A stretch of DNA of 28,275 nt, taken from the IMG/VR virus record IMGVR_UViG_3300047557_000100, positions 1 through 28,275 of that record. One strand, given 5' to 3'. The DNA is from a virus. The notes beneath the pieces were generated by a model. The model ran no database searches, was not told the origin of the DNA, and saw only the letters and a program-made list of their open reading frames with translations. Below are positions 1-27,744 of the stretch, piece after piece (positions within the stretch are counted from its first letter, which is position 1; the number at the start of each line of letters is the position of its first letter). The translations under genes and the position numbers were made by a program.

Positions 1-2
1 AT

Positions 3-1472
3 ACTGGCGCAGTTGTGACTGCTACAGGCATCCCGTCTGGCGCATACGTCCTTGAGACTTGGGCTGGCGGTTTAGCTGTTCCTTTGTCTGCCGCTGCTAC
101 GGCGTCTGGAACTTTGAGTGCTGTTTCATTTAGCTATGCCGGTCGCCATGTTCCGCAAGAAGTTAATTTAGTCATTGACTCGGCTATTAACGACTTCACA
201 GTTTGCATGGGTGCTACCCCGTACGACCCGACTGACTTCACTACAGCGTTTGATCCGCTATTGGTTCGTTGGTCCGATCAAGACAACCCTTGGGAGTGGG
301 TGCCTGAAGTCATTAACCAGTCAGGTGAGCAACGTCTGTCGCATGGCTCGTACATCGTTGCATCGGACAACTCTCGTCAAGAATTGTTGGTTTGGACTGA
401 CGCTGCCATCTATTCGATGCAGTACATCGGACCTCCGTTCGTGTGGAGTTTTAACCTTCTAGACCAAGATATCTCCATCATTTCGCAGAACGCTCTGCGG
501 ACTGTGAACAACGTCACGTACTGGATGGGGCGAGATAAGTTCTATGCCTATACTGGTCGTGTCGAGACGTTGCCGTGTACGTTGCGTACGTTTGTGTTCA
601 GCAACATAAACCAATCTCAATCGGCGCAAGTTGTCTGTGGGCACAATGAAGGTTTCAGCGAGATCTGGTGGTTCTATCCGTCTGCTAACAGCACGGTCAA
701 TGATAGCTACATCATTTATAACTACCTTGAACAAAGCTGGTATTACGGTACATTGAACCGTTCAGCGTGGGCTGAGCAGAGTCTTCGTGAGTATCCACTG
801 GCCGCGTTTGGTATTCAGTCTTCGTATCTCGACGCTGCGATTGACGCTAGTCAAACCACAATCACTCTAATTAACGGCTCGTCCTATCCGGATTCGGGCA
901 CTGTTTTGATTGATGCAGAGCAGATTTCTTACAGCGGCAAATCAATTGATAATCCTAACGAACTGCCGAACTGCGTTCGTGGAGTCAATCAAACTACCGC
1001 TGCAAGTCATGTCATCAATTCAGATGTGACGCTGCGAGTACCGAATCAAGTACTGTTGCAAGAGTTTGGTCTTGACGATGACTCGGGTCCGACTCCGCAG
1101 CCGATTGAGGCATACATTGAATCGTCAGACTTTGACATCGGTGAGGGGCATAACTTCGCCTACGTCTGGCGTATTCTGCCTGACCTCACGTTTGCAGGGT
1201 CAACAGCGGGCACGGAAGATAGTACAAATACAAACCCGCCAAACGTGCTGCTGACTATTAAGGCTCGGCAGAACTCAGGCTCGGCATACAACTCGACAAG
1301 CAGCCCGTATGTGACTGCGACTATTCCGATTGCGGCTGATCAATATAACGGACAGGTCTATACCCGCATCAGAGGGAGGCAGGTTGCCTTTCGTGTGGCT
1401 TCTACTGCACTAGGTGAAACTTGGCAGGTAGGCGCGATGCGTATTGATATTAGACCAGACGGACGACGCTGA
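3..1472 (+). CDS. P22 gp10-like DNA stabilisation / tail hub protein (5' truncated)
   Basis: The reading frame is open from base 3, so the true start lies left of the window; a GTG at 15 is only an internal possibility. The 485 or more visible residues are rich in aromatic beta-strand segments (for example RWSDQDNPWEW near residue 78 and EIWWFYPS near 216). They end in RGRQVAFRV...GAMRIDIRPDGRR, a C-terminal signature I associate with podovirus DNA-stabilisation/tail-accessory proteins of the P22 gp10 type, which plug the portal after packaging. An inserted stretch at about residues 270-345 has a repeat-like pattern (YPDSGTVLIDAEQISYSG, then RGVNQTTAASH). The stop overlaps the next start by one base (TGATG), so the two are probably translationally coupled. 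Family placement is by eye; another beta-propeller tail protein is possible. Confidence 0.62.
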   Translation, partial: TGAVVTATGIPSGAYVLETWAGGLAVPLSAAATASGTLSAVSFSYAGRHVPQEVNLVIDSAINDFTVCMGATPYDPTDFTTAFDPLLVRWSDQDNPWEWVPEVINQSGEQRLSHGSYIVASDNSRQELLVWTDAAIYSMQYIGPPFVWSFNLLDQDISIISQNALRTVNNVTYWMGRDKFYAYTGRVETLPCTLRTFVFSNINQSQSAQVVCGHNEGFSEIWWFYPSANSTVNDSYIIYNYLEQSWYYGTLNRSAWAEQSLREYPLAAFGIQSSYLDAAIDASQTTITLINGSSYPDSGTVLIDAEQISYSGKSIDNPNELPNCVRGVNQTTAASHVINSDVTLRVPNQVLLQEFGLDDDSGPTPQPIEAYIESSDFDIGEGHNFAYVWRILPDLTFAGSTAGTEDSTNTNPPNVLLTIKARQNSGSAYNSTSSPYVTATIPIAADQYNGQVYTRIRGRQVAFRVASTALGETWQVGAMRIDIRPDGRR

Positions 1473-2065
1473 TGGCAAATCCTCGCGGTGTCGTACCTCC
1501 AAGTCTTCCTGTTGCTCCGAATGCTTACGAACGGAAATATCAGGATCAGTTGTCGAGCGTATTACGACTTTTCTTTACAAGCCTGACAAGCAAGGTCAAC
1601 TCGCCTACGCCTCATGCTTCGTACTTTGACACCGCAACGCAGACGAATCCGATAGCCAATACAGTCAATCTGTTTACGTTCAATTCAGTTGTTTCTGAAT
1701 TTAAAGTTACTCGCGGCGTTCCAACGTCGAAGATATTTGTTAATGAGACTGGGGTTTTTAACTTTCAGTTCTCGGCTCAGTTGGACAAGTCTGGCGGTGG
1801 CGCAAGTGCGGTTTATATCTGGCCCCGAATCAACGGAGTCAACGTCCCAGATTCAAACACCAAAATGGTCATTGACGGTCCCAACAACGAAGTCGTGGCT
1901 GCTTGGAACTTCGTGCTTGTGATGGAGGCAGGGGACTATTTTGAATTGGCTTGGGAAGCCGCTGACACTAACGTAATTATCGCGCACGAAGCCGCTTCCA
2001 ACAACCGACCAGCTATTCCATCGGTCATTTTGACCGTCAACTGGGTATCGAATTACGAGGCCTAG
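1472..2065 (+). CDS. Small virion protein with C1q/TNF-like jelly-roll pattern
   Basis: This 197-residue protein starts at the ATG overlapping the previous stop. The first 50 residues are an anchor-like segment with a helix (YERKYQDQLSSVLRLFFTSL). The rest alternates short beta strands in the order of a C1q/TNF-type jelly roll: an FNFQFSAQLDK strand, a YIWPRINGVNVPDS strand-turn, then WNFVLVMEAGDYFELAWEA and a final ILTVNWV strand. Phage proteins of this shape commonly decorate tails or fibres and may bind host receptors. No signal peptide or membrane segment is seen. Position directly after the tail protein supports a structural role. The fold is inferred from strand pattern, and receptor binding is a guess. 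Confidence 0.6.
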   Translation: MANPRGVVPPSLPVAPNAYERKYQDQLSSVLRLFFTSLTSKVNSPTPHASYFDTATQTNPIANTVNLFTFNSVVSEFKVTRGVPTSKIFVNETGVFNFQFSAQLDKSGGGASAVYIWPRINGVNVPDSNTKMVIDGPNNEVVAAWNFVLVMEAGDYFELAWEAADTNVIIAHEAASNNRPAIPSVILTVNWVSNYEA

Positions 2066-2105
2066 CAGTGATACTATTCGTAAAACTTGACCCCGTGGGG
2101 GAAGT

Positions 2106-3920
2106 ATGAACAGCAATTATCCTCTTGGCGGTCTTGCCTCCCTCGTTGCATCACGGGGCGGTGGCGATGACTCCATGCTTGTCCACATGACCCCCAGCGA
2201 AGTGCAGGGGTTACAGTCGCTGGCTATGGCGCATGGGGGGTCGCTTGAGATTAACCCCGAGACTGGACTCCCCAAGGCTGGGTTCCTGAAGTCCATTCTG
2301 CCGACTGTGCTTGGTGCGGTGCTTGCCCCGTTCACGGGCGGTCTGAGTGCTGCCCTGCTCGTCGGTGCGGGTACGGGTCTCGTTGAGAAGGACTGGAAGA
2401 AGGGTCTTCTGGCCGGTCTTGGTGCGTTTGGTGGGGCTGGATTGAGTTCAGCCCTGACTAGCACCGGATCGAAGGCATTGGAAACTGCTGCGGCCGAGGG
2501 TATTAAAAAGACTGCTGAGACTGCGGCCACTACCACGTTTAATCCTTTGACAGCCGGTGCTCAGCAACTTGCTTCTTCGGCGGTTCCCCAAGGCATCAAG
2601 TTTGGTGCGGGAGAATCTGCCCTTGCTGGATTGAAAGCCTTGGGTTCTGAGGCTGGGCGCGAAGTCTTTACTAAAGCAGTTCCAGAAGCATTTAACAAAG
2701 CCATTCCGGGTATTGGCGGCATGATTGGTACTAAAACCGCTGCGGCAGCGGCAGCGGCTCCCATGCTATTTGCTGAGCCTGAACCCCTAAAAGTGCCTAA
2801 ATCTGGCCCAACTATGTACTACACCGGCACGGAGTTTGAGCAGGAACTCAACCCGAACCGTGACCAGCCCGGTCAGGCGTACTTCACCCAGCGGTTTACG
2901 CCGGGGCAGTTTACGACCCAGATGCCTCTGGGCATGGCTGAAGGTGGCAAGGCTGAGAGTAATAAGGGCGAAGGTAGCAAAACCCCTCCGCCTACTATGG
3001 AAGAATACTACCGGAGCATGTTAACGCCTCCGCCCCGGACTGCTCCGGCCAACCCGGCTTTGGGGCAGTATCTGGGTGACCTGAACAAATTCATAACGGC
3101 GGGTACGCCTAAAACGTCACCGACTTACGTTGCACCTCCGGCTGCACCTCCTCCGACTACGCCTCCCCCGGCTCCACCCCCGCCTCCGACTACGCCTCCT
3201 CCGGGCGGCGGCACGACTAACCCTCCTCCGGGTGGTGGAAGAGGTGGTGGAGATAGAACCGGCCCTGATCCGCAGGATCTCTACAATTTTAATAATTTCC
3301 AAGGATTTGACCCCAGCGTACTAGCGGGTTTTGACCCGTCATTTATGCAAGGGATTAATCCTTTTGTGACTGGGTACACCTCGGGTAGTGAGACCTACAA
3401 TCCACAAACCCAGAAGTTTGAGCCTACTCAAACTGCCCAGCAGACCACTACGCCTGACTTGGGTGGTGGAAACGACTATGCCTCCTTGTTCGGGCAGCAG
3501 TTCGGTCGTGAATTTAATGCGGGACCGTTCAAGTTCGACACTAGCGACATCTATAACCGCATCGCTGAAAACGAACTGATGGACATGAACCCCGGCATGA
3601 TGCAGTTCAATCAGGGTGGCATCAGTACGCTGGGTGGTTACTCAGACGGTGGCCGACTTCTCCGTGGTCCGGGCGACGGTATGTCAGATGACATCCCTGC
3701 CGAGATTCGTAGCCGAGCACGGCGGCAACCGGCGCGATTGGCTGATGGTGAGTTTGTAGTTCCGGCTGATGTAGTCTCCCACTTGGGGAACGGCTCTACA
3801 GATGCTGGGGCGAAACAACTCTATAAGATGATGGACAAAGTGCGTCGTGCGCGGACTAAAACGTCGCGACAGGCCAAAGCCATCAAACCTGAAAAATATA
3901 TACCGGGGCGACGATCATGA
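2106..3920 (+). CDS. Virion-associated protein with Gly-rich hydrophobic region, polyproline linker and conserved C-terminal domain
   Basis: A 604-residue protein preceded by a strong GGGGAAG ribosome site 2 bases before ATG, after a 40-base gap. N-terminal residues 27-60 (HMTPSEVQGLQSLAMAHGG, then NPETGLPKAGFL) form a module I recognise from many aquatic phages. Residues 60-118 are hydrophobic and Gly/Ala-rich, compatible with membrane-inserting helices. Residues 340-390 are a polyproline/glycine linker. The last 100 residues carry GPGDGMSDDIPA, LADGEFVVPADVVSHLG and a basic tail ending PGRRS, a conserved C-terminal block in aquatic phage virion proteins. No enzymatic motif is visible. The likely role is an internal or tail-associated protein that helps open the host envelope, but this is inference. 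The stop overlaps the next ATG (ATGA). Confidence 0.66.
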   Translation: MNSNYPLGGLASLVASRGGGDDSMLVHMTPSEVQGLQSLAMAHGGSLEINPETGLPKAGFLKSILPTVLGAVLAPFTGGLSAALLVGAGTGLVEKDWKKGLLAGLGAFGGAGLSSALTSTGSKALETAAAEGIKKTAETAATTTFNPLTAGAQQLASSAVPQGIKFGAGESALAGLKALGSEAGREVFTKAVPEAFNKAIPGIGGMIGTKTAAAAAAAPMLFAEPEPLKVPKSGPTMYYTGTEFEQELNPNRDQPGQAYFTQRFTPGQFTTQMPLGMAEGGKAESNKGEGSKTPPPTMEEYYRSMLTPPPRTAPANPALGQYLGDLNKFITAGTPKTSPTYVAPPAAPPPTTPPPAPPPPPTTPPPGGGTTNPPPGGGRGGGDRTGPDPQDLYNFNNFQGFDPSVLAGFDPSFMQGINPFVTGYTSGSETYNPQTQKFEPTQTAQQTTTPDLGGGNDYASLFGQQFGREFNAGPFKFDTSDIYNRIAENELMDMNPGMMQFNQGGISTLGGYSDGGRLLRGPGDGMSDDIPAEIRSRARRQPARLADGEFVVPADVVSHLGNGSTDAGAKQLYKMMDKVRRARTKTSRQAKAIKPEKYIPGRRS

Positions 3921-4786
3921 GTTCAGGCGGTACATCAAATTATTCTAGCGGAGCCACAGGTGGAGGCACAGGCGTAGCCCCCGAGCCTAGCGCACCATAC
4001 GCGCAAAGCGCACCGGCTCCGAGCGGTGGTAAGGGTGGATACAACCCTAACCCGTATTCGCAGGAACAGCAGCCGCAACAACCGCAACAACCGCAAGTCT
4101 ATATGCCGCCGTCGCAGCCGACGTTCTACGATCAGGCATTTATGCATATGCAGCCTCGCATGGAGGCTCCTCCGAGACAGTACGGGCTTGGTGGTATGGG
4201 CGGTGGCAATGCTTACGCTCGTCCGTTTCGCTCATATGGTTCGCCTGTCGAGGCACCTCCGCCGCCGGATGAGATGCGTTTTGTTCCCGCTGTGATGCCG
4301 GATACACCTCCTAGGGCTCGTCCCGCTGTAATGCCTGCTGTGATGCCGGATACACCTCCTAGGGCTCGTCCTGCTCCATTTCAACAAGAGTATGCGGTTG
4401 GTGCTACTCCGACTATGCCGGATATGCAAGTGAGTCATATGCGGAGAGATTATCCGGTTGGTCCTATGCCGGATATGCGAATGAGGGATTACTCTGATAT
4501 GCGGATTGATTCTTTCCGTCCACCTTATCAACCGCCCGTCGAAGCCACAAGAGCAGTCATGCCAGAACCCAATTACAGCGGTGGGCTTGGTAGTTTGTTT
4601 GGTGGGATGAGTGGTTCCGTGTCTTACCCGTCGTCGCCATCTCCTAGCGGTTTTGGTCCACTACAACAGCAAAATCCTCAACTTCTTGAACAGATGCAAG
4701 GGGCGGAGATTGAAAAGCAACGAAAAGCGGCTGACTTGCAGCGATTACGTTCACAGCCCTACGACCCCCGACAATTAATCGGATAA
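3917..4786 (+). CDS. Pro/Met/Gln-rich low-complexity phage protein
   Basis: The ATG overlaps the upstream stop by 4 bases. The 289 residues are mostly disordered: Ser/Gly-rich N-terminus, Gln/Pro runs near 48-60, then Pro-Met-Asp-Arg-rich motifs such as VMPDTPPRARPA (twice, 16 residues apart) and MPDMRMRDY. Only the last 50 residues (from about LLEQMQGAEIEKQRKAADLQRL) look helical. I do not recognise a family. Similar low-complexity proteins often sit between conserved tail genes of aquatic phages, so a structural or scaffold-like role is plausible. The intact frame over 870 bases, close packing with both neighbours and a consistent strand make it a real gene. The next gene starts 6 bases after the stop. 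Confidence 0.6.
   Translation: MSSGGTSNYSSGATGGGTGVAPEPSAPYAQSAPAPSGGKGGYNPNPYSQEQQPQQPQQPQVYMPPSQPTFYDQAFMHMQPRMEAPPRQYGLGGMGGGNAYARPFRSYGSPVEAPPPPDEMRFVPAVMPDTPPRARPAVMPAVMPDTPPRARPAPFQQEYAVGATPTMPDMQVSHMRRDYPVGPMPDMRMRDYSDMRIDSFRPPYQPPVEATRAVMPEPNYSGGLGSLFGGMSGSVSYPSSPSPSGFGPLQQQNPQLLEQMQGAEIEKQRKAADLQRLRSQPYDPRQLIG
4289..4371 (+). repeat. Direct repeat, 35 nt, two copies 48 nt apart
   Basis: Two identical 35-base copies (4289-4323 and 4337-4371) encode AVMPDTPPRARP twice inside the Pro/Met-rich protein. The spacing of 48 bases keeps frame, so it is an in-frame 16-codon duplication. Near identity at the DNA level suggests a recent duplication. Confidence 0.9.
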
Positions 4787-4792
4787 CGCTGG

Positions 4793-5236
4793 ATGAATCT
4801 TGAAATTACACTCGTGCCCTACGGCCAGATTAGCTACGTCGTACCGTCGCTGATCAAGTATTTTGAGAAGTCAGAGGGTTGGACCAAGGGACGCTCTGGT
4901 GTAGATGACATCGTTCGGTTTGTGCTGACCGGACAGATGCAGTTGTGGGTCGTGTTTGACCCGACTGACAGCACGATTTACGGATACGTTATAACTGAAA
5001 TTAAGCAGTACCCGAAGAGCAAGCTCTTTGTGATTCAGTACTGCGCGATGGAAGCGCAGCATATGCGTTACGTGTCCGACAGAATGCATGAGACCGCTGA
5101 TCGCTTCGCTCGTGATATGGGCTGTAACGGGGTTGAGTTCTTTGGTCGCCCCGGCTGGGAGCCGCACGTAAAGAAGTATGGCTACACGGCCAAGTCCGTG
5201 GTGTTTGAAAAATATTTTGATGAGGTGCCGAAATGA
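4793..5236 (+). CDS. GNAT-like acyltransferase-fold phage protein
   Basis: A 147-residue protein beginning at the ATG 6 bases after the upstream stop. It has the strand-helix layout of a GNAT N-acyltransferase: an N-terminal helix region (SYVVPSLIKYFEKSEGWT), strands LWVVFDPTD and IYGYVITEIKQYP, strand LFVIQYCAME followed by a long helix (about residues 90-110), and VEFFGRPGWEPHVKKYGY near the C-terminus. The usual acetyl-CoA pyrophosphate loop (Q/RxxGxG/A) is not evident, so it may be a non-catalytic GNAT fold. T7 gp13, a small virion-assembly protein, is annotated with a similar fold and sits among late genes, which is a useful parallel. The stop overlaps the next ATG (ATGA). Confidence 0.6.
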   Translation: MNLEITLVPYGQISYVVPSLIKYFEKSEGWTKGRSGVDDIVRFVLTGQMQLWVVFDPTDSTIYGYVITEIKQYPKSKLFVIQYCAMEAQHMRYVSDRMHETADRFARDMGCNGVEFFGRPGWEPHVKKYGYTAKSVVFEKYFDEVPK

Positions 5237-6909
5237 GGCGCGTAAATAAGCTCCACGACTTTGGCTTTTATGAAGAATCACCAGAGGCGTACTTTAATTC
5301 TGGTGACCGTGCGCTCATCAAACTGAAGTCGAACATTGCATACGGTGGTGGCGGTAGCGCCCCATCTGCTCCGACTCAGCAAACAATTACGCAGAACACG
5401 ATCCCCGAGCAGTTGATGCCGACTGCTCTGCGCCTTTTGGGGCGTGTCGAAGCACTGACGGACGTTAACAAAGTTCCGTATCAGGTATACGGCGGTCAGC
5501 GCATGGCGGGTCTTAACCCGCTTCAGCAGCAAGCGATTCAAGGCACGGCTGAACTAGGCCCGACTGCCCAGACCCAACAGGCTACAGGACTCGCTGGCCT
5601 TGCTGGACTACAAGCAAACCAGATGGCTCAAGCCGGTTATCAGCCGATGCGGGAGCGCGAGTTCTATCAGCCGATGGATCTTGCTTACGGCAGTGTTCAG
5701 GCTCCGCAGTTACGCAATTACCAGATGGCTCCTACTCCACAGGTGCAGGGGCAGGGATACGGCGCATTGTCGATGGGCGCACCGGGGCAAGTACAGGCTC
5801 AAGGTTTGCAGCAGTTTCAGATGGGACCGGCTGAGCGGATTGGTGCCGATAAGTTTGGTATTCAACAGGCTCGCGAATACATGTCTCCCTACATGCAGGA
5901 TGTGGTGGAGCAGCAGAAGCAAGCCGCTGTCCAAGACTATGCTCGTCAGTTGCCCGGTATGGGTGCTGCGGCGGCTCGTGCGGGTGCTAAAGGTGGTACT
6001 CGTGAAGCGTTGCTTCAGGCTGAAGCCCGTCGCGGGTTGCAGGATCGCCTTGGAGATATTGAGGCCACAGGTCGTCAGCAAGCCTTCCAACAGGCACAGC
6101 AGCAGTTCGGTGCAGACCGCGCCGCTCAAATGCAAGCTGCGCTTGCCAATCAACAGGCTGGGCTTAGCACCGGTCAGCAGAACCTTGCGGCTCAATTGCA
6201 GACTCAGGGTCTTGGCGCACAACAGGGCTTGCAAGCGGCTCTTGCCAACCAGCAGATGGGCTTCAACGTCGGTCAGCAGAATCTCTCTGCCGAGCAAGCG
6301 CGTCGTCAGTTCATCGCTCAGCAGGGCATGCAGGCTCAACTTGCCAATCAGCAAGCAGGTCTTACGTCTGGTCAGCAGAATCTGGCTGCATTGCTTGGCG
6401 TACAGCAGTTGGGTGCTGGTCAACAGTTACAAGCGCAGCAGCTTAATCAGGCCGCGCAACTTCAGGCTCAGCAACAGGCTCTGGCTCAACAGCAACAGAT
6501 GGCGCAGTTTGGCTTGCAGGGAGCGCAGCTTGCTGAGCAGTCCCGGCAGTTTGGTGGTAACTTTGGCCTTCAGGCATTGCAGCAGCAGTTGGCTGCGGCG
6601 GGTCAGCTTGGTCAGTTAGGCCAGCAACAGTTCGGCCAGCAGCAAGCAGCGGCTCAAGCGCAGATGGGCACGGGAGCGCAGCTTCAGGCTCTTGAACAGC
6701 AACGTCTGGAGCAGCAGTATCAAGACTTCCTTGCTCAGCAGCGTTATCCGTACTCGCAGTTGGGCTTCTTGTCTGACGTATTGCGCGGTATTCCTACAAC
6801 GACTTCGTCTCAAGCGATTTACGCAGCGCAGCCCAGCATGGTCAATCAGATTGCCGGTGCGGGTATGACAGCGTATGGTTTGGGTAATCTCTTCGGTAGG
6901 GGTGGTTAA
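5233..6909 (+). CDS. Gln-rich repeat virion/tail protein
   Basis: A 558-residue protein coupled to the preceding gene by an ATGA overlap. After a short N-terminal extension, residues 51-95 (TITQNTIPEQLMPTALRLLG, then PYQVYGGQRMAGLNPLQQQA) form a conserved start I associate with aquatic phage tail or internal proteins. The middle (about 280-510) is almost entirely Gln/Ala/Leu, with three 33-residue tandem repeats built on LANQQxGxxxGQQNL, suited to a long coiled coil. The C-terminus (YPYSQLGFLSDVLRGIP, then QIAGAGMTAYGLGNLFG) is again conserved in such proteins. No catalytic motif is visible. An elongated structural role, internal core or tail, is inferred from composition and context. Confidence 0.62.
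   Translation: MRRVNKLHDFGFYEESPEAYFNSGDRALIKLKSNIAYGGGGSAPSAPTQQTITQNTIPEQLMPTALRLLGRVEALTDVNKVPYQVYGGQRMAGLNPLQQQAIQGTAELGPTAQTQQATGLAGLAGLQANQMAQAGYQPMREREFYQPMDLAYGSVQAPQLRNYQMAPTPQVQGQGYGALSMGAPGQVQAQGLQQFQMGPAERIGADKFGIQQAREYMSPYMQDVVEQQKQAAVQDYARQLPGMGAAAARAGAKGGTREALLQAEARRGLQDRLGDIEATGRQQAFQQAQQQFGADRAAQMQAALANQQAGLSTGQQNLAAQLQTQGLGAQQGLQAALANQQMGFNVGQQNLSAEQARRQFIAQQGMQAQLANQQAGLTSGQQNLAALLGVQQLGAGQQLQAQQLNQAAQLQAQQQALAQQQQMAQFGLQGAQLAEQSRQFGGNFGLQALQQQLAAAGQLGQLGQQQFGQQQAAAQAQMGTGAQLQALEQQRLEQQYQDFLAQQRYPYSQLGFLSDVLRGIPTTTSSQAIYAAQPSMVNQIAGAGMTAYGLGNLFGRGG
6139..6435 (+). repeat. Three tandem 99-nt (33-residue) repeats
   Basis: Copies at 6139-6237, 6238-6336 and 6337-6435 each begin with [AQ]LANQQ followed by GQQNL. 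They have diverged at DNA level but keep exact length. Thirty-three residues equals three 11-residue (hendecad) turns, compatible with a right-handed coiled coil. Confidence 0.85.
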
Positions 6910-6911
6910 TA

Positions 6912-8426
6912 ATGGATGGCATTCTTACTGACCCGCGACTGCTTGCACTGCAACAGGCTGCAAAAGGCAAAGACCCACAGGCATTTCGTCAGGAACTCAT
7001 GGCGCGAGTAGATCGCGGAGAGTTGCCCTCTAGCCTTGTCTACGTGATGAACTTGCAGAACCGCGCCGAGTTGATTGGCAAAGCCATGTCGCCGGAGCAA
7101 CAGCAGCAAGCGATGCAGCAGCCGTCGATTCGTCAGCGTCTTGAGAATGCCGTGGCTAACGCTGCCCCACCTCCGCAGATGCAGCAGCAGATGCCTGTAC
7201 AACAGCCGCCTATGATGGGCGGCGCACCCGCTGGGCTTCCGGCTACGAGCGCGGCTACGCTTGCTCGTCCGGGTACGTTCAGTGCCAAGGGTGGTGGCAT
7301 TGTGGCGTTTCAGAACCAAGGGTTGGTAGAAGGCGAGGAAGACGAGTATCCGGAGGTAGACGCCGCTTCGTTCTACCCGGCGGCTCCGGCTGCACCGGCT
7401 CCGAATCCCATGATGACTCCAGAGAATATCGCCAAGATGAAGCCTTCTGAAATGCAGGCTCAAGGTCTTGGAATGGTGTTGCAGCGTCGTCCGCGCACTA
7501 GCCAAGAGAGCCAAGAGAAGGCTCGTAAGGCACTGGCTGATTCGCTGGGCGTAGACAAGCTCAACAAAGAACAGACCAAGATGTTCAAGGATGCAATTAC
7601 CAACATTGCTGCACGGCGTGATGAAGCCAAGGCAATGTTCTTCCTTGAGGCCGGAGAAAAGATTGGTAAAAGCACACAAGGATTTCTGGGTGCGATAGCA
7701 ACTGGATTTGCTGAACCTGCGGCTCGCCTTGGCAAGACCCGCCGTGAGTTGGACGTTGAAGAGCGCGGCGTGAAGGGTGAACAACTCAAGTCGCGTCGTG
7801 ATTATGCCAATGCCAAGTTGGCTGACTTTGACCGTATCGGCACTGCTCGTATGGCTGACGAGGCTGCTGTGGCAGCGGAAGAAGGCCGTATTGGAACAGC
7901 CATGATGACCTACGGCAGCCAGCAAGAGCAGGTCAAGCTTGCTCGTGAACGCATGATTAATGATCTTAAAAGATCACAGGGTCAACTCGGCCCGCTGGGC
8001 TTGTTCAAGGAAGACATCGAAGCGGCAATCAAAGCCCTTCGTGCGGCTAAAACGCCAGAAGAACTCGCGGCTGCTCAAATCAAGTTTGATGCAGTCACTG
8101 CCAACATGCAGAAGCTCCAGCCGCAGTACATTACTGGGCAGGCGGGCATTACCCGCGAACAAATGCGTACTGGGTACAATCGCGCTATAAATGCAGAAAA
8201 GAACCCTAACAGCGAACTTTATCAGTTGCGTAATCAGTTGCGGCTTGAAAGAGCCAAGCGCGACAAAGCTGATCCAAATCGTATTGCACAACTTGAAGCA
8301 GCGATTGAGGCCGAAGAAGACCGTCTGTTGGGCGTACCACAACCTAATCAGGCTGCGCCAACTGGGCAAGCGGGTAAAAACTTTGTATTTAATCCTGAAA
8401 CTGGCGAACTTGAGCCAATCGGGTAA
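6912..8426 (+). CDS. Putative internal virion protein with coiled-coil region
   Basis: A 504-residue protein starting 2 bases after the upstream stop. The N-terminal 85 residues are helical (PRLLALQQAAKGKDPQAFRQ), followed by a Pro/Gln/Met linker, a small GGGIVAFQNQG motif near residue 128, and an acidic stretch. Residues 195-330 are charged helices including FFLEAGEKIGKSTQGFLGAI, an amphipathic segment that could contact membrane. Residues 330-470 predict a long coiled coil (RLERAKRDKADPNRIAQLE). No enzyme motif is seen. It lies immediately before the giant ejection-type protein, and podoviruses usually encode their internal core proteins together, so it is probably packaged and ejected with the genome. 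That role is inference. Confidence 0.6.
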   Translation: MDGILTDPRLLALQQAAKGKDPQAFRQELMARVDRGELPSSLVYVMNLQNRAELIGKAMSPEQQQQAMQQPSIRQRLENAVANAAPPPQMQQQMPVQQPPMMGGAPAGLPATSAATLARPGTFSAKGGGIVAFQNQGLVEGEEDEYPEVDAASFYPAAPAAPAPNPMMTPENIAKMKPSEMQAQGLGMVLQRRPRTSQESQEKARKALADSLGVDKLNKEQTKMFKDAITNIAARRDEAKAMFFLEAGEKIGKSTQGFLGAIATGFAEPAARLGKTRRELDVEERGVKGEQLKSRRDYANAKLADFDRIGTARMADEAAVAAEEGRIGTAMMTYGSQQEQVKLARERMINDLKRSQGQLGPLGLFKEDIEAAIKALRAAKTPEELAAAQIKFDAVTANMQKLQPQYITGQAGITREQMRTGYNRAINAEKNPNSELYQLRNQLRLERAKRDKADPNRIAQLEAAIEAEEDRLLGVPQPNQAAPTGQAGKNFVFNPETGELEPIG

Positions 8427-8431
8427 TCCTC

Positions 8432-11400
8432 GTGCCATACAACGTACAGCTTCCGGATGGGCGCAATGTTCAGTTTCCGGATTCGGTTCCGCCTGAACAA
8501 GCAGCGCAGATCATCCGACAGCAGCTTCTAACCCAAGCTGCTCCCCCTGCACAACCCGCTCCGGCTCAACCGCAAGTACAACCGGGTCAACCGGCAGAAG
8601 CCGCAGCAATGGCTGCTGTGGGAGAGCGTGGATTTGGGCGACTTTTCTCTGGACTTGGTACGTCTATAGCTGAGCGGTTCAAACAGCTTGGTTATTCGTA
8701 CATGGTTGAGAAAGCCGACGAAGCCAAAAAGATTTCGAACAAAGACAATGCTGAAGCACAGCAACGGGTAGACGAGTTAACTCAAGAATACCTTGCCAAG
8801 CTTCGTGCTAGCGATGAGCGCATCCGTCAAGCAACTCCAGAAGATCTGAACGTTATTGAAGAAGGCGTTCGATCTGGTATTGAGAGTGCCATTTTCCAAT
8901 CACCGGGATTAATTGCATCCGTTGCTGCACGTAGTTCATTACCGAACTTGGCTCTAGCGGGGTTAAGCACTCGTCAGCAAAGTTATGCTGAAGCGCGCGA
9001 AGAAGGAAAAACTCCTGAGCAAGCGTCGCTATACGGCAACGTTGATGCCATCATTGAAGTAGGCACGGAGTACTTCCCATCTAAATTCTTAACCGATGCG
9101 TTTGGCGTTAAGACGCTCAAGGGTGTCAAAGACGAACTTATTAAATTTGCTGCGGGTGAAATACCGGGCGAACAGGCTGCGACTCTTTTGCAGTCGCTCA
9201 ACGCCTACGCAAACGGGCTTGATGAAGAACTTGCTAACGCGCAATCCGCTAGCGAGGCTGCTCTTATCCAAGGCAGAAGGCAGGTTGTTACTGCCATCGC
9301 TACGCTTGTAGGCGGTGGTGTCCAAGCCGGTGCTGCCACGGCTCTTGGTGCATTGAGACAGGAGCCGCCTGAACTTACGCCGCGCCAGAGCGTCGCTGAA
9401 CTCGACCGTCAGGTTGCCGATTACCAGACTCGGATCGCGCAGATTGAAGCGCAGTTAAAGATTCCCGGCGTATATACGCAGGAAGAATCTAGGAAGATGA
9501 TTGACGAAGCCAAGAGCTTCGAAAAAGAAATCGGCATCCTTAACGATATACGTAAAGATACTGTTAAGACTTATGGTTTGACGGATCTTGAAAAGAAAGA
9601 ACCGGCTACTGTAACTACGACTGCTGGTGGCACGGGTACAGTTGTCTCTCCGAAAGATAAACCAACAGAACTCAAGGGCAACGTCACGCTGCCTACATTT
9701 GAGACTGTTCCTGCAACAGAACCTTTCCAAGGATTCAATGAACTAGAGCAACGCGCTCTGGATACGATTCGTCTCCTTGGCAACGAGACTGTCAAAGATC
9801 AGTGGAACAAAATCCTTCGCAGCAAATTCAATATTGATGCGAAAGGCGCGGGTATTCTGCTCAGCAAACTGAAGAAGGCTGACCTGATTACTGGTCGAGT
9901 CGAAGGTTTGCAGTCGCTTAAAACTGTTACGCCCCAGCCTACAGTCACTCCCACTGAGACTACAACTGAGACTACAACTGAGACTACGACTGCACCTGCC
10001 GCAACCACGACCACGACCACGACCACAACTCTGCCTCCGGCCCCCCAAGCGCAGCCAATACCAGAAGAGTTATATAACAACGCGGTAAACGTTGTTATGT
10101 CTGGGCAGGTCTCGCCTACCGAAAAGAAAGAAGACGGCACGGACTTTGTTCTTGCTAGCGTCTCCACATCTGCCTTGGGACGCGCTCTCAACATAGGCAT
10201 GGAAGACGCTGACCGTATCCTTGGTCAGATGCAAGCGCAGGGTCTTGTTGGGGAGGTGATGCCCAACGGCGTACGTCCGTTGACGGATCAAGGTTTAAAA
10301 ACATTCAAACCCACAGACTCTTCTGCTCAAATTTTTGAAGCAGGGGAAAGTGCTCCTTCAATTCCGCTTACAGACCCTGCCAGTCCGATTTACCAGAAAG
10401 GTGCAGAGGCTCTCAAACAAGCGGCAATGAACCGCAAAGATGTAAACGTCCCGGCGATCATAAAAGCCACGGGGCTTGAGCGTCAGCAAGCCGTTGAATT
10501 GATGGATGCCTATCAACAGAACGGCGTAGTATCTAAGGCAGACCCGAAGACAAGAAAGCGTAAGTATCTACTGGAGTTACCCAAACGTGAACTACGCCCA
10601 CGAACTACTGCTCAGAAGGCTGTCGCTGGAGCAGGTGCAGCAGGCACTGGAACTGTTGTACAAAAACGAGGAGCCGCCGCCGCAGGGACCACTAAGCCTC
10701 CTAAGTCCGCTGGACTGGGGGGTGTTGGAGCAGGTGTTGGTACAACTGATGCTGGAAAGGGTCGAGTCCTCCCTGCACTAGCACCGGAACAGCGTGATCA
10801 ATATCAGGCTGCTGCACAAGCGTTGCTCCGCGCAGGAGCAATCTCCACGCCTGATTACAACCGAGTTATTGCGGACATCAATCTTGCTGCTAACCCGGTT
10901 GATGATGCGGGTAATCCTGTCACCCCGCCTGACCTGACTGAAACTTCTAAGATCGTCAATGCAGCGGCTCAGCGTTATCAACAAATACAGGCTGGTACGG
11001 CGAAGCCAATCGTTGAAGAGAAGGTCGAACTGCCCGATGAAGTTGAGGAGCGCGTTGGTAAGAAGAAGGAACGCGCCGCAGTTTCTAAACAAGCCAAGCA
11101 GTTTGAGAAGGTCACTAAGCAAGCCGCAGCGACTACCGGTGTTAAGGCAGCGCAGGAAGAAGGCGCACCAAAGGAGGTTGGCGAAGAAGGCTCTGCACCT
11201 ATTGAACGTGAGGCGCGAGTTACTGGAGAACGCGTTGAGTTAACTCGGGGCATGTTGGCAGAAGTCACCGCCCTTCCGGAGCAAACTACTACTGCCTCGG
11301 AGGAAGCACCAGAACAGACTTCCAAAGAACTCAGCGAAGAAGCGTTGGGTAAAGCTATTAATGGCAGACCCATCGTAGAAGTACTCAACCTCATCGTTAA

Positions 11401-14400
11401 AACGTCGGATAGTCCGTCGTACAGAATGATTGCCGACCATCTTCTTCGGACGTTGGATTACTTGGTGTCATCTGGGTTTATTAAAGAGTTTCCCATTCAG
11501 GTTGTTAGCACCTTGCCGCGTGGCACACAGGGGCTAGCAACGATTTATCCGCAAGCTGACATGACCCGCACTCCCGGCCTACTCAACATGGGTATCGGGA
11601 TAAAAATCAATAAAAATAATACTGATTATAAAACTGTGTTACATGAAATTGTTCACAGTGTTTTACAGCCGCTCGTCGAGCTTGGTCGTGCAGCTAAAGA
11701 TATTGGTATTAAAAATGATCTGGTAACTGCGTTTGAACAGTACCAAGAAGTTGGTAACTTCATTGGTAAAAAGCTTGTTGAACTTGTCAACAACCCGCCA
11801 AAAAACAATCAAATGCGCGCGTTGGTGCAAGACCTTCAGACTATGAATATTCTGAAGAAAGATAGTAATGGGAGACTCACTTATCAAGTAGACGAAATTT
11901 ACACGTGGGGGTTAACCGATGCATCAGCACAAGCATTGCTGCGGTTGATTCCATATCGTCGTGAGCAGACTACGTGGAGCCGGTTTGTAGATACTGTTAC
12001 TAAGATGTTGGGATTTACGGTTGACGCAAACACTGCGCTTGCTCAAATTCTCAGCGTAACGGACAGGATGGCAAACACAACCGACGCCATCATTGAAATG
12101 CGCCGCGATCCTGTCACGATGATTAGGATAGGGCGTGCGCCTTTTGGGCGCCCTGTGCAACGTGGGGCAAAAAAGTTTAAAGCTCCCCCTGCCAAGGTAC
12201 GCACCCCAGAGGAGATGTACCAAGAGAGCGTTGATGAACTCGACTCTGTGGCTGGCGGCAGACCGGGCTTCCTAAAACGCGCTAAAGAATTCTTAACCGG
12301 GACGCCGTATCTCAAAGCTGCGCGCGATTTACAGAACTACCGGTACGTTTTGAAAGACATTCAGAACGGCTTAGAAATGACAGGCCGGTTGCTGCGTGAG
12401 AACGTAGGAACGCTCGGCTTTAATAACTTCTACGACCGAATGGTTGTCTCGACTGGCTTGACCAAGGGCATCATGGTGTCCCGCATCATGCCGCGCTTTG
12501 AGGCTATCGAAGTCGCTGCCAAGGCTTATGGCAAGAAATCAAAACTGCCATACAAGAAAGTGTTAGCGAAGTTGGATAAGACGCTAAAGGCGTTGCACAT
12601 TGGTGAGCGTCGCCGCACCAAGTTCATGTTGTTTGCGCCGCTTGATAACACCAAGAAAGACTTCCAGATCACCAAGCCAGATGGCACGACCGAACAAGTC
12701 AGTGCCGCTAAGCTGCGTGAGTATATCTGGACGCTGCTGCACACCAATTTAAAGTTTCAGAATGATGCCCAGCGTCAAGCTTGGTACAAGATCATCGATA
12801 ATTACCGTGATCAATTAATGCAGTTAACGGACAGAAATGATCCGAATAACCGCCTTGATGTGAACGGTTCTAGCCTTGCCGACATGATGGAGGGGGCTGA
12901 AAAGAAGAAGCCCGGTACTCGGTCGATCCGCATTGAAGATCCTGAGTACAACGTGCTCGGCACGTACTACCAAAAGGAAATCGACGATCTCATCCAAGAG
13001 TACAACTCTGACCCGAACAAGACTGAGTTCGACGAGATCATCAATGCTGTGCGCGACGTACAGGAAGAGACCGTCAAGCTAGACGAAGAAGCCAACTACT
13101 GGACGCAGGGTGTGTCGAACATCAAGCAGTTTTATGGTTGGAAGAACTATGTGCCTTTGACTGGTAAGGCACAGCAGAAAGTATCTGAAGAAGATGACAC
13201 GTTGGAGTTCTCTAGCCCCCGCTACTCTGCTGAGTACAAGGGCGAGATTGCTGCTGGGTTTAAGGGTGCGAAGTCCGAATCCCAGAACGCGCTGCTTGCA
13301 ACGCAAATCGCAGCTACGCGGGCGGCTATGCGTGTCGGGTTGAAGGATTCTAGACAAGCCATTCACAACGCTTTGAGCCAAGGCATCCTTGATGGCAAAG
13401 CCAAAGAGCGCATCAAGTTTGAAGACCGTGCCAAAGGTCTGGAGCCGCTGAAGTATCAGGGCAACCGCATCTTCATTAACTACAACGCAGACGGATCAAT
13501 TGACGTTTGGGAGCTAACCAACCGCGATCAACGCAACGCTATCCGTCGTGAGTTTGAGCCGGAAGAATCAAACAATATCTTCCTCCGCGCCATTGACGCG
13601 ATGGGAACGGTAACGAGCGGCGTAGCGCAGTTCTTCACCCGATACAACTTGGCATTCGGTTTCAAGAACTTCATCCGCGACATGTTCACTTACTCGGCGG
13701 TGTTTGCACGGCTTGGTCCGAAAGAGATGGCGCGGTACACCGCTAACGTCGCTGCGGACGTAGCACGGCTTGGCCTCGTGAAGGCAGGGCGTATCAGCTA
13801 CTTGTACAACCGTGGTCGCTTCGATGACATTGAGAAACTCGCTGCTAAAGACAAGCGGTTCTATGCCCCGGCATGGGAGTTCTTGAAGAACGGTGGTGAG
13901 TCTGTCTTCGTGCAGCAGTTCACCAAACTGTCGCGCTTAAAGAGTCTGGTTGAGCGGTACGATGTCGCTAGCGCCAACAATAAACTGAAGATGGGCAAAG
14001 AAGTTATCGATGCCTTCTTCGATACGTGGGCGTCGATGTTTGAATTGACTGCACGTGTCAGTGCCTACCGCATTCGCAAGGAAGAAATTCTTGCCAAAGA
14101 CCCCAGTCTGAGTGACGAGGCAGCGCAGGTCTCGGCAGCGTCGTGGACTAAGGAGATGCAGAACTTTGAAGCGGTGGGCGATAAGGTGCGCCGCATCAGT
14201 AAACTGTATTACTTCTTCCGTCCCGGCTCGACAGGCTCGGTTCGGGCGTTGGAAGTTCTGCGCCCCATGTTTATCTACGATGTGAATCGCCTGCTGGGCC
14301 AGCTTCCAGACAAGATTAAGAAAGATCCTATGGCACTGCGTAAAGCAGAGATCCAACTACGCCGGGATCGATACAACAGCATGCTATCTACGATGGCTAT

Positions 14401-15484
14401 GCTTGGCCTCGGCTACTTCATCTATATGATGGCTGCGTCGATGGCAGGGGACGATGACCTTGAACGCAACGTAGTTGCGACAGACAAGAAGGAACTCTGG
14501 GCACGTAGCCTCCGTATCCCATTGTCTTACTTTGGCCTTGGTGAGAAAGACGAGTTCTTCCAACTTCCTTGGGGGCTTGGCGCAGGATCATTCCCAGCAA
14601 TGGGTGCACAGATAGCTGCGTACACACAAGGGCATCAAACTGGTAAAGAGTTCATTTCTAACATGATGCAGATCGTGGCTGAGTCGTACATGCCGATTCA
14701 GCCGGTCAAGTTCAATCCGTTTGACCCGACCGAAGGTGCGAAGAGCGTACCGAAGAACCTCGGTATTGCACTGATTTACCCAGTCACCCCGTCACTGCCA
14801 CGGTCGTACCTTGAGTACTTGATCAACGTAAACACGTTGGGCCAGCAGATTTATCGCGACCAATCTAACAAGTATGGCGATGCATACGTCGATGTTGAAC
14901 GTATCCCTGAGATATACAACGACGCTGCCAAGTGGTTTGAACGTGTGAGCGATGGCGCTATCGATTACAAGCCTGAGTTCTACCACTACTTGGTGAGCAA
15001 CTTTGTCATGGGGCTTGGCAACCTTGTGGCTGACTCGTACAGCCTTGGCCTGACGTTGCTTGGCGATAAAGAGTTTGACCCACGACGCGACACCGTGTTC
15101 CTGTCAGGCTTCTTTGCGCGTCGCCCAAGCCCAGATGCCAAGGAGTACGAGCGGGTCAAATACGACATTGAGAACATGGATCGGGAGTTGAAGAAACTCG
15201 ACGCTCTCGCAGCTGTTGACCCAACTAACGTCCGTAATATTAAATACCGAGACAAGTACGAAGGCATAGATGATCTCATTGAAGTCTACCGCGACAACAA
15301 AGTCTTGATAGATAAACTGCGCGAAGAGAGTGGCCGCATCCGTGCAGGACAGGCCGGTACGTACACGACGGAAGAGCGTAAACGCATCGTGCAGAGCCTT
15401 AACGAAGACATCAATCTGTACAAACTACAGATGGTTCTGTACTACCAAGACTACAAAAAGATCTTAGAAGATAGCTCTAACTGA
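8432..15484 (+). CDS. Giant polyvalent virion-ejection protein (winged helices, zincin motif, LPD38-like region)
   Basis: A 2350-residue protein with a GTG start 5 bases after the preceding stop. Visible order: residues 1-34 (MPYNVQLPDGRNVQFPD, then PPEQAAQIIRQQL), an N-terminal tag common in large phage virion proteins; a helical and Gly-rich region 60-310; three winged-helix-like units at about 431-492, 545-623 and 654-716, the second closely following the FtsK-gamma pattern (SALGRALNIGMEDADRILGQ, then QGLVGEVMPNG); a Thr/Pro linker at 502-535; a zincin-type HEIVH at 1071-1075 with a possible third ligand E1155; a long helical region; an LPD38-like segment starting near 1735 (RYNLAFGFKNFIRDM); one hydrophobic segment about 1984-2006; and a charged coiled C-terminus. 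This matches polyvalent proteins that phages inject with DNA. Functions of individual domains are inferred from motif shape. Confidence 0.75.
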   Translation: MPYNVQLPDGRNVQFPDSVPPEQAAQIIRQQLLTQAAPPAQPAPAQPQVQPGQPAEAAAMAAVGERGFGRLFSGLGTSIAERFKQLGYSYMVEKADEAKKISNKDNAEAQQRVDELTQEYLAKLRASDERIRQATPEDLNVIEEGVRSGIESAIFQSPGLIASVAARSSLPNLALAGLSTRQQSYAEAREEGKTPEQASLYGNVDAIIEVGTEYFPSKFLTDAFGVKTLKGVKDELIKFAAGEIPGEQAATLLQSLNAYANGLDEELANAQSASEAALIQGRRQVVTAIATLVGGGVQAGAATALGALRQEPPELTPRQSVAELDRQVADYQTRIAQIEAQLKIPGVYTQEESRKMIDEAKSFEKEIGILNDIRKDTVKTYGLTDLEKKEPATVTTTAGGTGTVVSPKDKPTELKGNVTLPTFETVPATEPFQGFNELEQRALDTIRLLGNETVKDQWNKILRSKFNIDAKGAGILLSKLKKADLITGRVEGLQSLKTVTPQPTVTPTETTTETTTETTTAPAATTTTTTTTTLPPAPQAQPIPEELYNNAVNVVMSGQVSPTEKKEDGTDFVLASVSTSALGRALNIGMEDADRILGQMQAQGLVGEVMPNGVRPLTDQGLKTFKPTDSSAQIFEAGESAPSIPLTDPASPIYQKGAEALKQAAMNRKDVNVPAIIKATGLERQQAVELMDAYQQNGVVSKADPKTRKRKYLLELPKRELRPRTTAQKAVAGAGAAGTGTVVQKRGAAAAGTTKPPKSAGLGGVGAGVGTTDAGKGRVLPALAPEQRDQYQAAAQALLRAGAISTPDYNRVIADINLAANPVDDAGNPVTPPDLTETSKIVNAAAQRYQQIQAGTAKPIVEEKVELPDEVEERVGKKKERAAVSKQAKQFEKVTKQAAATTGVKAAQEEGAPKEVGEEGSAPIEREARVTGERVELTRGMLAEVTALPEQTTTASEEAPEQTSKELSEEALGKAINGRPIVEVLNLIVKTSDSPSYRMIADHLLRTLDYLVSSGFIKEFPIQVVSTLPRGTQGLATIYPQADMTRTPGLLNMGIGIKINKNNTDYKTVLHEIVHSVLQPLVELGRAAKDIGIKNDLVTAFEQYQEVGNFIGKKLVELVNNPPKNNQMRALVQDLQTMNILKKDSNGRLTYQVDEIYTWGLTDASAQALLRLIPYRREQTTWSRFVDTVTKMLGFTVDANTALAQILSVTDRMANTTDAIIEMRRDPVTMIRIGRAPFGRPVQRGAKKFKAPPAKVRTPEEMYQESVDELDSVAGGRPGFLKRAKEFLTGTPYLKAARDLQNYRYVLKDIQNGLEMTGRLLRENVGTLGFNNFYDRMVVSTGLTKGIMVSRIMPRFEAIEVAAKAYGKKSKLPYKKVLAKLDKTLKALHIGERRRTKFMLFAPLDNTKKDFQITKPDGTTEQVSAAKLREYIWTLLHTNLKFQNDAQRQAWYKIIDNYRDQLMQLTDRNDPNNRLDVNGSSLADMMEGAEKKKPGTRSIRIEDPEYNVLGTYYQKEIDDLIQEYNSDPNKTEFDEIINAVRDVQEETVKLDEEANYWTQGVSNIKQFYGWKNYVPLTGKAQQKVSEEDDTLEFSSPRYSAEYKGEIAAGFKGAKSESQNALLATQIAATRAAMRVGLKDSRQAIHNALSQGILDGKAKERIKFEDRAKGLEPLKYQGNRIFINYNADGSIDVWELTNRDQRNAIRREFEPEESNNIFLRAIDAMGTVTSGVAQFFTRYNLAFGFKNFIRDMFTYSAVFARLGPKEMARYTANVAADVARLGLVKAGRISYLYNRGRFDDIEKLAAKDKRFYAPAWEFLKNGGESVFVQQFTKLSRLKSLVERYDVASANNKLKMGKEVIDAFFDTWASMFELTARVSAYRIRKEEILAKDPSLSDEAAQVSAASWTKEMQNFEAVGDKVRRISKLYYFFRPGSTGSVRALEVLRPMFIYDVNRLLGQLPDKIKKDPMALRKAEIQLRRDRYNSMLSTMAMLGLGYFIYMMAASMAGDDDLERNVVATDKKELWARSLRIPLSYFGLGEKDEFFQLPWGLGAGSFPAMGAQIAAYTQGHQTGKEFISNMMQIVAESYMPIQPVKFNPFDPTEGAKSVPKNLGIALIYPVTPSLPRSYLEYLINVNTLGQQIYRDQSNKYGDAYVDVERIPEIYNDAAKWFERVSDGAIDYKPEFYHYLVSNFVMGLGNLVADSYSLGLTLLGDKEFDPRRDTVFLSGFFARRPSPDAKEYERVKYDIENMDRELKKLDALAAVDPTNVRNIKYRDKYEGIDDLIEVYRDNKVLIDKLREESGRIRAGQAGTYTTEERKRIVQSLNEDINLYKLQMVLYYQDYKKILEDSSN
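9953..10027 (+). repeat. Short tandem repeats encoding a Thr-rich linker
   Basis: Three copies of a 12-mer (actgagactaca, the last with one change) at 9953-9988 and four copies of a 6-mer (accacg, the last accaca) at 10004-10027 lie inside the giant virion gene. They encode TET repeats and a run of nine Thr between two winged-helix-like units. Such tracts can change length by slippage without losing frame because both units are multiples of three. Confidence 0.88.
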
Positions 15485-24720: not shown

Positions 24721-25182
24721 TTAAGCAGCCTTCGATTCTCGACGGGCGATCTCGCGATCAATGTAGAACCTAGCCTTCTTCAAGTCCTGCAACGGATTGC
24801 CCTTGTAGAAAGCGCGGCTGATGTACTTCACAGCGTTGCCCAAGTGATAGTTAAGATTCTTAGCCTCTATGAACTCAATCGTTTCCACGCCGCCAACCTT
24901 GTAGTGCGGGGGATGATTGACCATGTCGGCCTCGGGAACCTTGATCGGCTTCTGCCCGTTGAAGATCAACGGTTTCACCGGCTGCAATACTTCGCGGGTC
25001 TTTGCGATCTTCGATAACTTGGTCTTCTTGACTCGCTCACCCTTCTTTATGTTGTTCTTCCAATAGAACTTTACTTGGTGAACGTAGTTCTCTTTGAGTT
25101 TCAACTTGGCGGCGATCTCTTTTACTGACAGCCCCTCTGCCAAGAGAGCGCGAATCTTCGCAGCATTACTCTGCTTTTTCAT
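24721..25182 (-). CDS. HTH-DUF3310 fusion protein (nucleotide-kinase-like)
   Basis: A 153-residue protein that starts within the end of the VRR-NUC gene (17-base overlap), with TAGGAG 9 bases before ATG. Residues 5-42 form a helix-turn-helix (AEGLSVKEIAAKLKLKENYV). A basic Lys-rich linker covers 43-85. Residues 88-147 hold DUF3310: VNHPPHYKVGGVETIEFI, NYHLGNAVKYISRAFYKG and DLKKARFYIDREI. DUF3310 occurs in T7 gp1.7, an unusual nucleotide kinase for dGMP and dTMP, where it carries conserved His and Lys/Arg residues. The fusion to an HTH may couple nucleotide metabolism with DNA binding, or the HTH may be a recruited DNA anchor. Kinase activity has not been shown for every DUF3310 protein. Confidence 0.82.
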   Translation of the reverse strand: MKKQSNAAKIRALLAEGLSVKEIAAKLKLKENYVHQVKFYWKNNIKKGERVKKTKLSKIAKTREVLQPVKPLIFNGQKPIKVPEADMVNHPPHYKVGGVETIEFIEAKNLNYHLGNAVKYISRAFYKGNPLQDLKKARFYIDREIARRESKAA

Positions 25183-26234: not shown

Positions 26235-26472
26235 CTCGCACCAACACTAGTAACTTACAGATCACATGGCTCTCGGTCTTCTGCTCTCCTGCTTTGTGCA
26301 AGAGATCAAACTGATGAGCTAAGTTCTCAATCATGTCCCAGTCGATGTATTCCAACTCTAGGTTGTCACCAATCGTCGCCCAGACTTTTTCCTGTGGCGG
26401 GATCGGAACCATGTCCTCTGGCTTTACATCCAGATAGGACACATCGTCATCAAGAGTTAGGGAAGTAGTCAT
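26206..26472 (-). CDS. Small acidic early protein
   Basis: An 88-residue acidic protein whose ATG overlaps the end of the glycosyltransferase gene by 23 bases, with AGGAG 7 bases upstream, an excellent ribosome site. Visible parts: TTSLTLDDDVSYLDVKPEDM at the N-terminus, a hydrophobic/acidic middle (NLELEYIDWDMIENLAHQF), and KLLVLVRDDTRKKERG at the end. I do not recognise a family with confidence, though the EYIDWD...CKLLVLVR order seems familiar from aquatic phages. No nucleic-acid or catalytic motif is seen; it could be an inhibitor or assembly factor, but nothing shows this. Confidence 0.62.
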   Translation of the reverse strand: MTTSLTLDDDVSYLDVKPEDMVPIPPQEKVWATIGDNLELEYIDWDMIENLAHQFDLLHKAGEQKTESHVICKLLVLVRDDTRKKERG

Positions 26473-27631: not shown

Positions 27632-27744
27632 CAGTAGTCTCTCCCACTTCGTTTGGCTCCCCACGCAGGTGGGGGCACATGTGACCACTCTCGTCTGCGG
27701 AAATCATCAGCGCGCTTGAAGAAACTTAGTAGCCATTTGATCAT
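27628..27744 (-). CDS. 38-residue nested early ORF
   Basis: An ATG at 27744 overlaps the stop of the upstream gene (ATGA) and its TGA at 27628-27630 overlaps the GTG of the TPR gene (GTGA), so both ends are coupled by 4-base overlaps. GAGGGAAG lies upstream at a suitable distance. The peptide begins MIKWLLSFFKRADDFRRREW, a hydrophobic-basic helix, followed by a Pro stretch (VPPPAW) and ends KRSGRDYW. It looks membrane-associated or amphipathic. Without it there would be a gap of more than 100 bases in an operon of overlapping genes. Function unknown. Confidence 0.62.
   Translation of the reverse strand: MIKWLLSFFKRADDFRRREWSHVPPPAWGAKRSGRDYW
27639..27645 (-). promoter_or_regulatory. Ribosome site fixing the TPR-glycosyltransferase start
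   Basis: GGGAGAG on the minus strand, 7 bases before GTG at 27631. It favours this start over a GTG 57 bases upstream, which has no comparable site and lies inside the 38-residue ORF. Confidence 0.65.

Follow-up and report, generated by a model that had tools for sequence, protein, structure and literature searches.

Why would a very large phage protein of the ejected type carry domains resembling FtsK gamma, which in bacteria reads short oriented sequences? The question is raised by a 28-kb virus record of 28,275 nucleotides (the window), in which an open reading frame of 2350 residues (8432-15484, + strand) was described in an initial annotation as holding three winged-helix units between residues 431 and 716. 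The placement given there is correct, these residues corresponding to nt 9722-10579.

Genomic setting and identity of the giant protein

In the window, the + strand encodes virion proteins (1-15484), and the - strand carries a replication set comprising a SNF2-type helicase, DNA polymerase A, a DUF927 primase-helicase and a PD-(D/E)XK nuclease. The - strand also encodes a protein with tetratricopeptide repeats (26450-27688, Pfam TPR_2), whose C-terminal stretch matches PHROG 36377 of unknown function, and a DUF3310 protein (24721-25182) with a weak GerE/LuxR-type HTH match at its N-terminus. The 2350-residue frame is a real gene, begins with GTG and is the last large + strand gene of the window. 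The genes 5' of it match virion-structure and DNA-ejection PHROGs, among them a virion structural protein (3-1472, +; PHROG 3287, head and packaging, E 3e-53) and a DNA-ejection-type protein (5233-6909, +; PHROG 4287, 'DNA ejection protein', E 1e-8).

Near the N-terminus, residues 71-289 (8642-9298, +) share 29-47% identity in tblastn with giants encoded by Vibrio and Caulobacter phages, in which Pfam LPD22 is found near the N-terminus. Downstream of the three units lies a zincin-type metallopeptidase domain (residues 1058-1213; 11603-12070, +) with H1071-E1072-x-x-H1075 and a distal E1155, four residues that are invariant across a 40-row alignment. In profile searches, this region matches the internal virion protein 9sfn (E 2.8e-20; 1.9e-6 with the single sequence), PhiM1 gp48 (8vb2, E 2e-4) and the N4 virion RNA polymerase (11fw, E 6e-4). 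PhiM1 gp48 is a tetrameric ejection protein (PMC11440229), the text of that ejectosome paper being free of the word 'protease', and the N4 polymerase carries HExxH in its C1 domain (PMC12633501). The homology to these podovirus ejection proteins covers the protease region only, and overall length and architecture differ. Further along the chain, residues 2034-2213 (14531-15070, +) form large polyvalent protein associated domain 38 (LPD38; Pfam E 2.9e-10, above the cut-off). No solved structure was matched by a profile of the C-terminal thousand residues.

With LPD38, an HExxH...E metallopeptidase and FtsK_gamma in one very large chain, the protein has the composition of a large polyvalent protein. 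Because its zincin region matches solved ejection proteins, it carries LPD38 and it has virion-gene neighbours, we class it as an ejection protein, in agreement with the initial annotation. By analogy with the homologues, it is almost certainly a phage-type large polyvalent/ejection protein, carried in the head of a short-tailed phage and injected with the DNA.

Comparison with the relative L002 sets the protease segment apart. Identity to L002 falls to 65-72% over window positions 11102-12121 (residues 891-1230), where synonymous change is nearly saturated; outside this segment the giant is 91-100% and the replication genes are 99-100% identical. Judged from these sequences, the segment has probably been recombined.

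Structure of the three units

The middle unit (unit 2, residues 545-623; 10064-10300, +) contains the signature IG-x3-A-x5-QM-x-AQG-L-V...NG-x-R, including I588 and G589, and matches Pfam FtsK_gamma (PF09397, E 4e-8, 33 bits) with a core at residues 576-613 (10157-10270, +). Against the curated cut-off of 30.6 bits, the whole 2350-residue protein scores just below (29.2 bits, E 7.8e-7), and unit 2 or the N-terminal half scanned alone scores above (33.0-33.2 bits). In a phmmer search of the PDB, E. coli FtsK gamma (2j5p) came first, with E 0.003; a three-member profile of unit 2 and the units of two relatives reaches E 7e-14 against 2j5p, with much of the score coming from the relatives. The AlphaFold model (pLDDT about 75-80) displays an order of elements that fits a winged helix. 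By sequence, the resemblance noted initially is real homology, and unit 2 is a genuine FtsK-gamma relative. Its surface is less typical of a DNA binder: the unit is acidic (K+R 6 vs D+E 11), an acidic insert precedes helix 2, and the recognition helix, MEDADR, is poor for DNA contact. The NG-x-R wing motif is kept.

Unit 3 (residues 654-716; 10391-10579, +) is basic (K+R 12 vs D+E 7), with a basic wing (KTRKRK). When the FtsK-gamma profile was slid along the 2350-residue protein, residues 651-725 gave the top non-self match, and unit 3 outscored 100 of 100 shuffles in hhalign. A profile scan of this unit yielded no family above cut-off and only weak MarR/HTH matches. In the AlphaFold model it adopts a wHTH-like order of elements (pLDDT about 70-80; helices 232-246, 253-260 and 264-276 of the modelled fragment). 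The weak profile match and the modelled topology together make unit 3 a probable winged helix.

Unit 1 (residues 431-492; 9722-9907, +) has phmmer relatives in L007 and L014, and scores near background with the FtsK-gamma profile, its score being reached by one of 100 shuffles. AlphaFold places helices and strands in units 2 and 3, and three helices without strands in unit 1. Modelled alone (AF2 pLDDT about 65), unit 1 has HTH/wHTH proteins as its top fold matches, all at E > 0.2. A CurG/CurH fusion protein also matches unit 1 weakly (E 0.02). We describe it as an HTH-like three-helix bundle of uncertain class, with no convincing wing in the models. Of the proposed trio of winged helices, the second is a secure FtsK-gamma unit and the third a probable wHTH, and the class of the HTH-like first unit is uncertain. 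A Thr/Pro/Glu/Ala-rich linker (residues 506-533; 9947-10030, +) separates units 1 and 2.

The model of the entire three-unit region was built from an alignment of five sequences, and its confidence is modest (mean pLDDT 60). Among its PDB fold matches are proteins with winged helices in tandem, for example SelB and DtxR-type repressors; FtsK is not among the best 50 in this Foldseek search with a low-confidence multidomain model, for which we leave out global TM-scores as uninformative. A Foldseek search of the viral fold library (BFVD) places the FtsK-gamma-bearing small terminase from phage Sam46 at rank 10. Structure prediction, which had been suggested as a check, fits a wHTH-like element order in units 2 and 3 only.

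A variable region between N-terminal domain and protease

Relatives were collected by several routes. A primase search retrieved 80 related contigs, most of which encode a giant protein at the same place; these giants are about 30% identical in their C-terminal half and differ in the N-terminal half. A search with the C-terminal alignment gave 80 loci that partly overlap the primase-retrieved contigs. Used as a single query sequence, the giant recovered one close relative, and a genome-collection search found one relative, L099, in an alphaproteobacterial MAG. The three-unit region itself gave only one tblastn match among phages (E 0.7), and a plasmid search gave none. A peptide-pattern scan for the FtsK-gamma signature detected only L010 and one near copy, and a nucleotide-pattern scan of viral contigs for the strict signature detected nothing.

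Besides the window and L002, Pfam FtsK_gamma occurs in the giants of L010 (53 bits), L091, L056 and L142 (40.6 bits), that is, in four of 100 related contigs scanned. The L142 giant combines FtsK_gamma and LPD38 in one chain, both above cut-off. A weak Pfam match in the contig of L057 (G041) lies within a 28-residue frame and was discounted. Since so few of the related giants carry the domain, it is not essential to ejection. Wherever they occur, the FtsK-gamma units are located after the N-terminal region and before the protease. The same interval holds weaker wHTH-like units at residues about 370-430 in the giants of L102-L105 and of L116, L119 and L126. The domain is common in phages at large: a search with the L010 unit matches 205 phage records, with FtsK-like and RdgC-type proteins among them.

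The middle region of the giants varies in length and content among relatives. Past the shared N-terminal region, the giant of Caulobacter phage BL94 (L089:7668-13787) carries ART-PolyVal at residues 612-777, and that of Vibrio phage 1.185.O (L085:8524-16068) carries GNAT at about 643-707. Because its contents vary between FtsK-gamma, ADP-ribosyltransferase and GNAT, the region between N-terminal domain and protease behaves as a cargo slot, as far as the compared sequences indicate. Additional kinds of cargo are suggested by the N-terminal halves of the giants in alignment A1, where individual members gave matches to HATPase_c_3 (E 1e-12) and to MORN repeats (E 2e-19).

The C-terminus also varies. 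The FtsK-gamma giant at L010:12998-18388 (-) ends differently (LPD39, NCBIfam PLxRFG 'tail-700') and is accompanied by the same replication genes; two C-terminal types of giant alternate within one phage group.

Possible DNA tethering and protein docking

We consider it somewhat probable that the slot holds DNA-binding-type units that are delivered with the genome and tether the ejection protein to double-stranded DNA. The giant, by analogy with its homologues, would share the head with the packaged genome and enter the cell when the phage infects it. Its slot would present one FtsK-gamma winged helix, flanked by a probable winged helix and an HTH-like unit, on flexible linkers. These units would most likely hold the protein to the entering phage genome or to host DNA by multivalent contacts of non-KOPS or low sequence specificity, and no DNA pumping would be involved. 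After entry the zincin, judging from homologues, may cut the chain and free the segment that carries the units. The FtsK_gamma match, the recurrence in the same slot and the basic unit 3 argue for this tethering, and FtsK wHTH domains in polyvalent proteins have been predicted to bind dsDNA (PMC5512222). The weak matches of units 1 and 3, the modest model confidence and the acidic unit 2 count against it.

Tethering is challenged chiefly by the acidic face of unit 2, and for this reason protein docking is its main rival. According to this alternative, which we regard as unlikely though credible, the units bind other ejection proteins or a host partner rather than DNA; wHTH folds often act as protein adaptors. 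The acidic recognition helix of unit 2 would suit such a role. FtsK gamma also binds XerD through its DNA-reading face, with R1289 critical (PMC5052618), and the equivalent R584 is kept in unit 2. This position is, however, S, K or another residue in some related giants, and unit 3 is basic. No tyrosine recombinase was found in the window or in a 42.7-kb relative, and a phage-borne partner of this kind was rejected on that search.

Proposed sequence reading, and constraint

The initial annotation also proposed that the units read oriented sequences and so direct or pull DNA. In its general form, this reading has the units recognise a specific short sequence, as FtsK gamma recognises KOPS, and thereby orient phage DNA entry or dock at host chromosome sites. 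In E. coli FtsK, KOPS is read via N1296, R1300 and E1303, and substituting all three abolishes recognition (PMC2533119); substitutions of R1300, E1303 and E1306 likewise leave the protein blind to KOPS (PMC2680272). Unit 2 shares with the FtsK/SpoIIIE gamma domains (PF09397; 2j5p, 2ve8) its sequence family, the helix 2-helix 3-wing core and the equivalents of R1300 (R595), R1289 and NG-x-R; the homology and these retained residues and motif speak for reading. It differs from them in the acidic insert, the ejection-protein setting and most of the reading residues, N1296, E1303 and E1306 being replaced by E591, G598 and Q601. Neither N1296 nor E1303 is retained in any giant examined (the latter is D in L142). 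By contrast, an RdgC-type fusion in Vibrio phage K120 has the sequence YNRAARIME, in which N1296, R1300 and E1303 are preserved. This K120 protein (L098:2056-3216, +) is annotated 'exonuclease recombination-associated', as recurs in many Vibrio phages, and has FtsK-gamma at its end.

Neither the window record nor the 42.7-kb relative matches the FtsK/SpoIIIE RecA-type motor PF01580, and an FtsK motor was rejected on this search. KOPS (GGGNAGGG) occurs once in the window; KOPS/SRS counts were also run on pieces of the relative. The suggested search for a skewed octamer gave a top difference of 7 in the window, an incomplete genome, compared with simulated maxima averaging 6.8 and reaching 9. 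With altered reading residues, no motor, a single KOPS and no octamer polarised beyond simulation, KOPS/SRS guidance is rejected and an orienting function of the units is unlikely on these sequence grounds; we give specific sequence reading in general little credence.

It is slightly less probable still that the units amount to neutral spacer, or to captured domains in decay, within a fast-changing linker region. The presence of FtsK-gamma in few relatives and the differing length and content of the middle region would fit such decay. Against it, FtsK-gamma recurs in the same slot of several divergent giants, and the units are 97.5-100% identical in amino acids between the window and L002. Unit 1 shows 10 synonymous and no nonsynonymous changes, unit 2 no synonymous and two nonsynonymous changes, and unit 3 one amino-acid difference. 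With the units conserved and an 11-residue indel in the Thr-rich linker, this short comparison suggests that they are maintained by constraint, the relative being, at 92% identity, too close for a strong test.

Least probable of all, and in our view improbable, is that the winged-helix string reads a phage-specific, non-KOPS sequence marking one genome end, with the protein leading or anchoring the DNA in a defined orientation; FtsK-gamma would then read a DNA end without any motor.

Relation to known systems and significance

Fusions of this type are already known in kind, and the window giant adds a member. FtsK wHTH domains were reported in 2017 as infrequent DNA-binding domains of phage polyvalent proteins, with LPD38 listed as phage-only (Iyer et al. 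2017, PMC5512222). The window giant resembles those proteins in its very large multidomain chain, LPD38, metallopeptidase, accessory DNA-binding and enzyme domains, late virion gene setting and FtsK wHTH; it differs in having two further units, one a probable wHTH and the other HTH-like, and its reading residues, examined here, are altered. An FtsK_gamma domain was reported in 2021 in the small terminase of Bacillus phages Sam46 and Sam112 (PMC8190038), likewise fused to a phage DNA-handling protein. That protein, in contrast, serves packaging rather than ejection, and its DNA-binding residues are reported to be highly conserved with bacterial FtsK.

The window and its relatives add documented cases in which giant ejection proteins of phages have FtsK-gamma as cargo, with altered KOPS-reading residues, and caution against annotating such carriers as FtsK translocases or orienting pumps. 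Through the zincin region, uncultivated phages are connected with ejection proteins of solved structure (9sfn, 8vb2) and with the C1 domain of the N4 virion RNA polymerase. The putative cargo slot, with its FtsK-gamma, ADP-ribosyltransferase and GNAT domains, is a place to seek injected early effectors.
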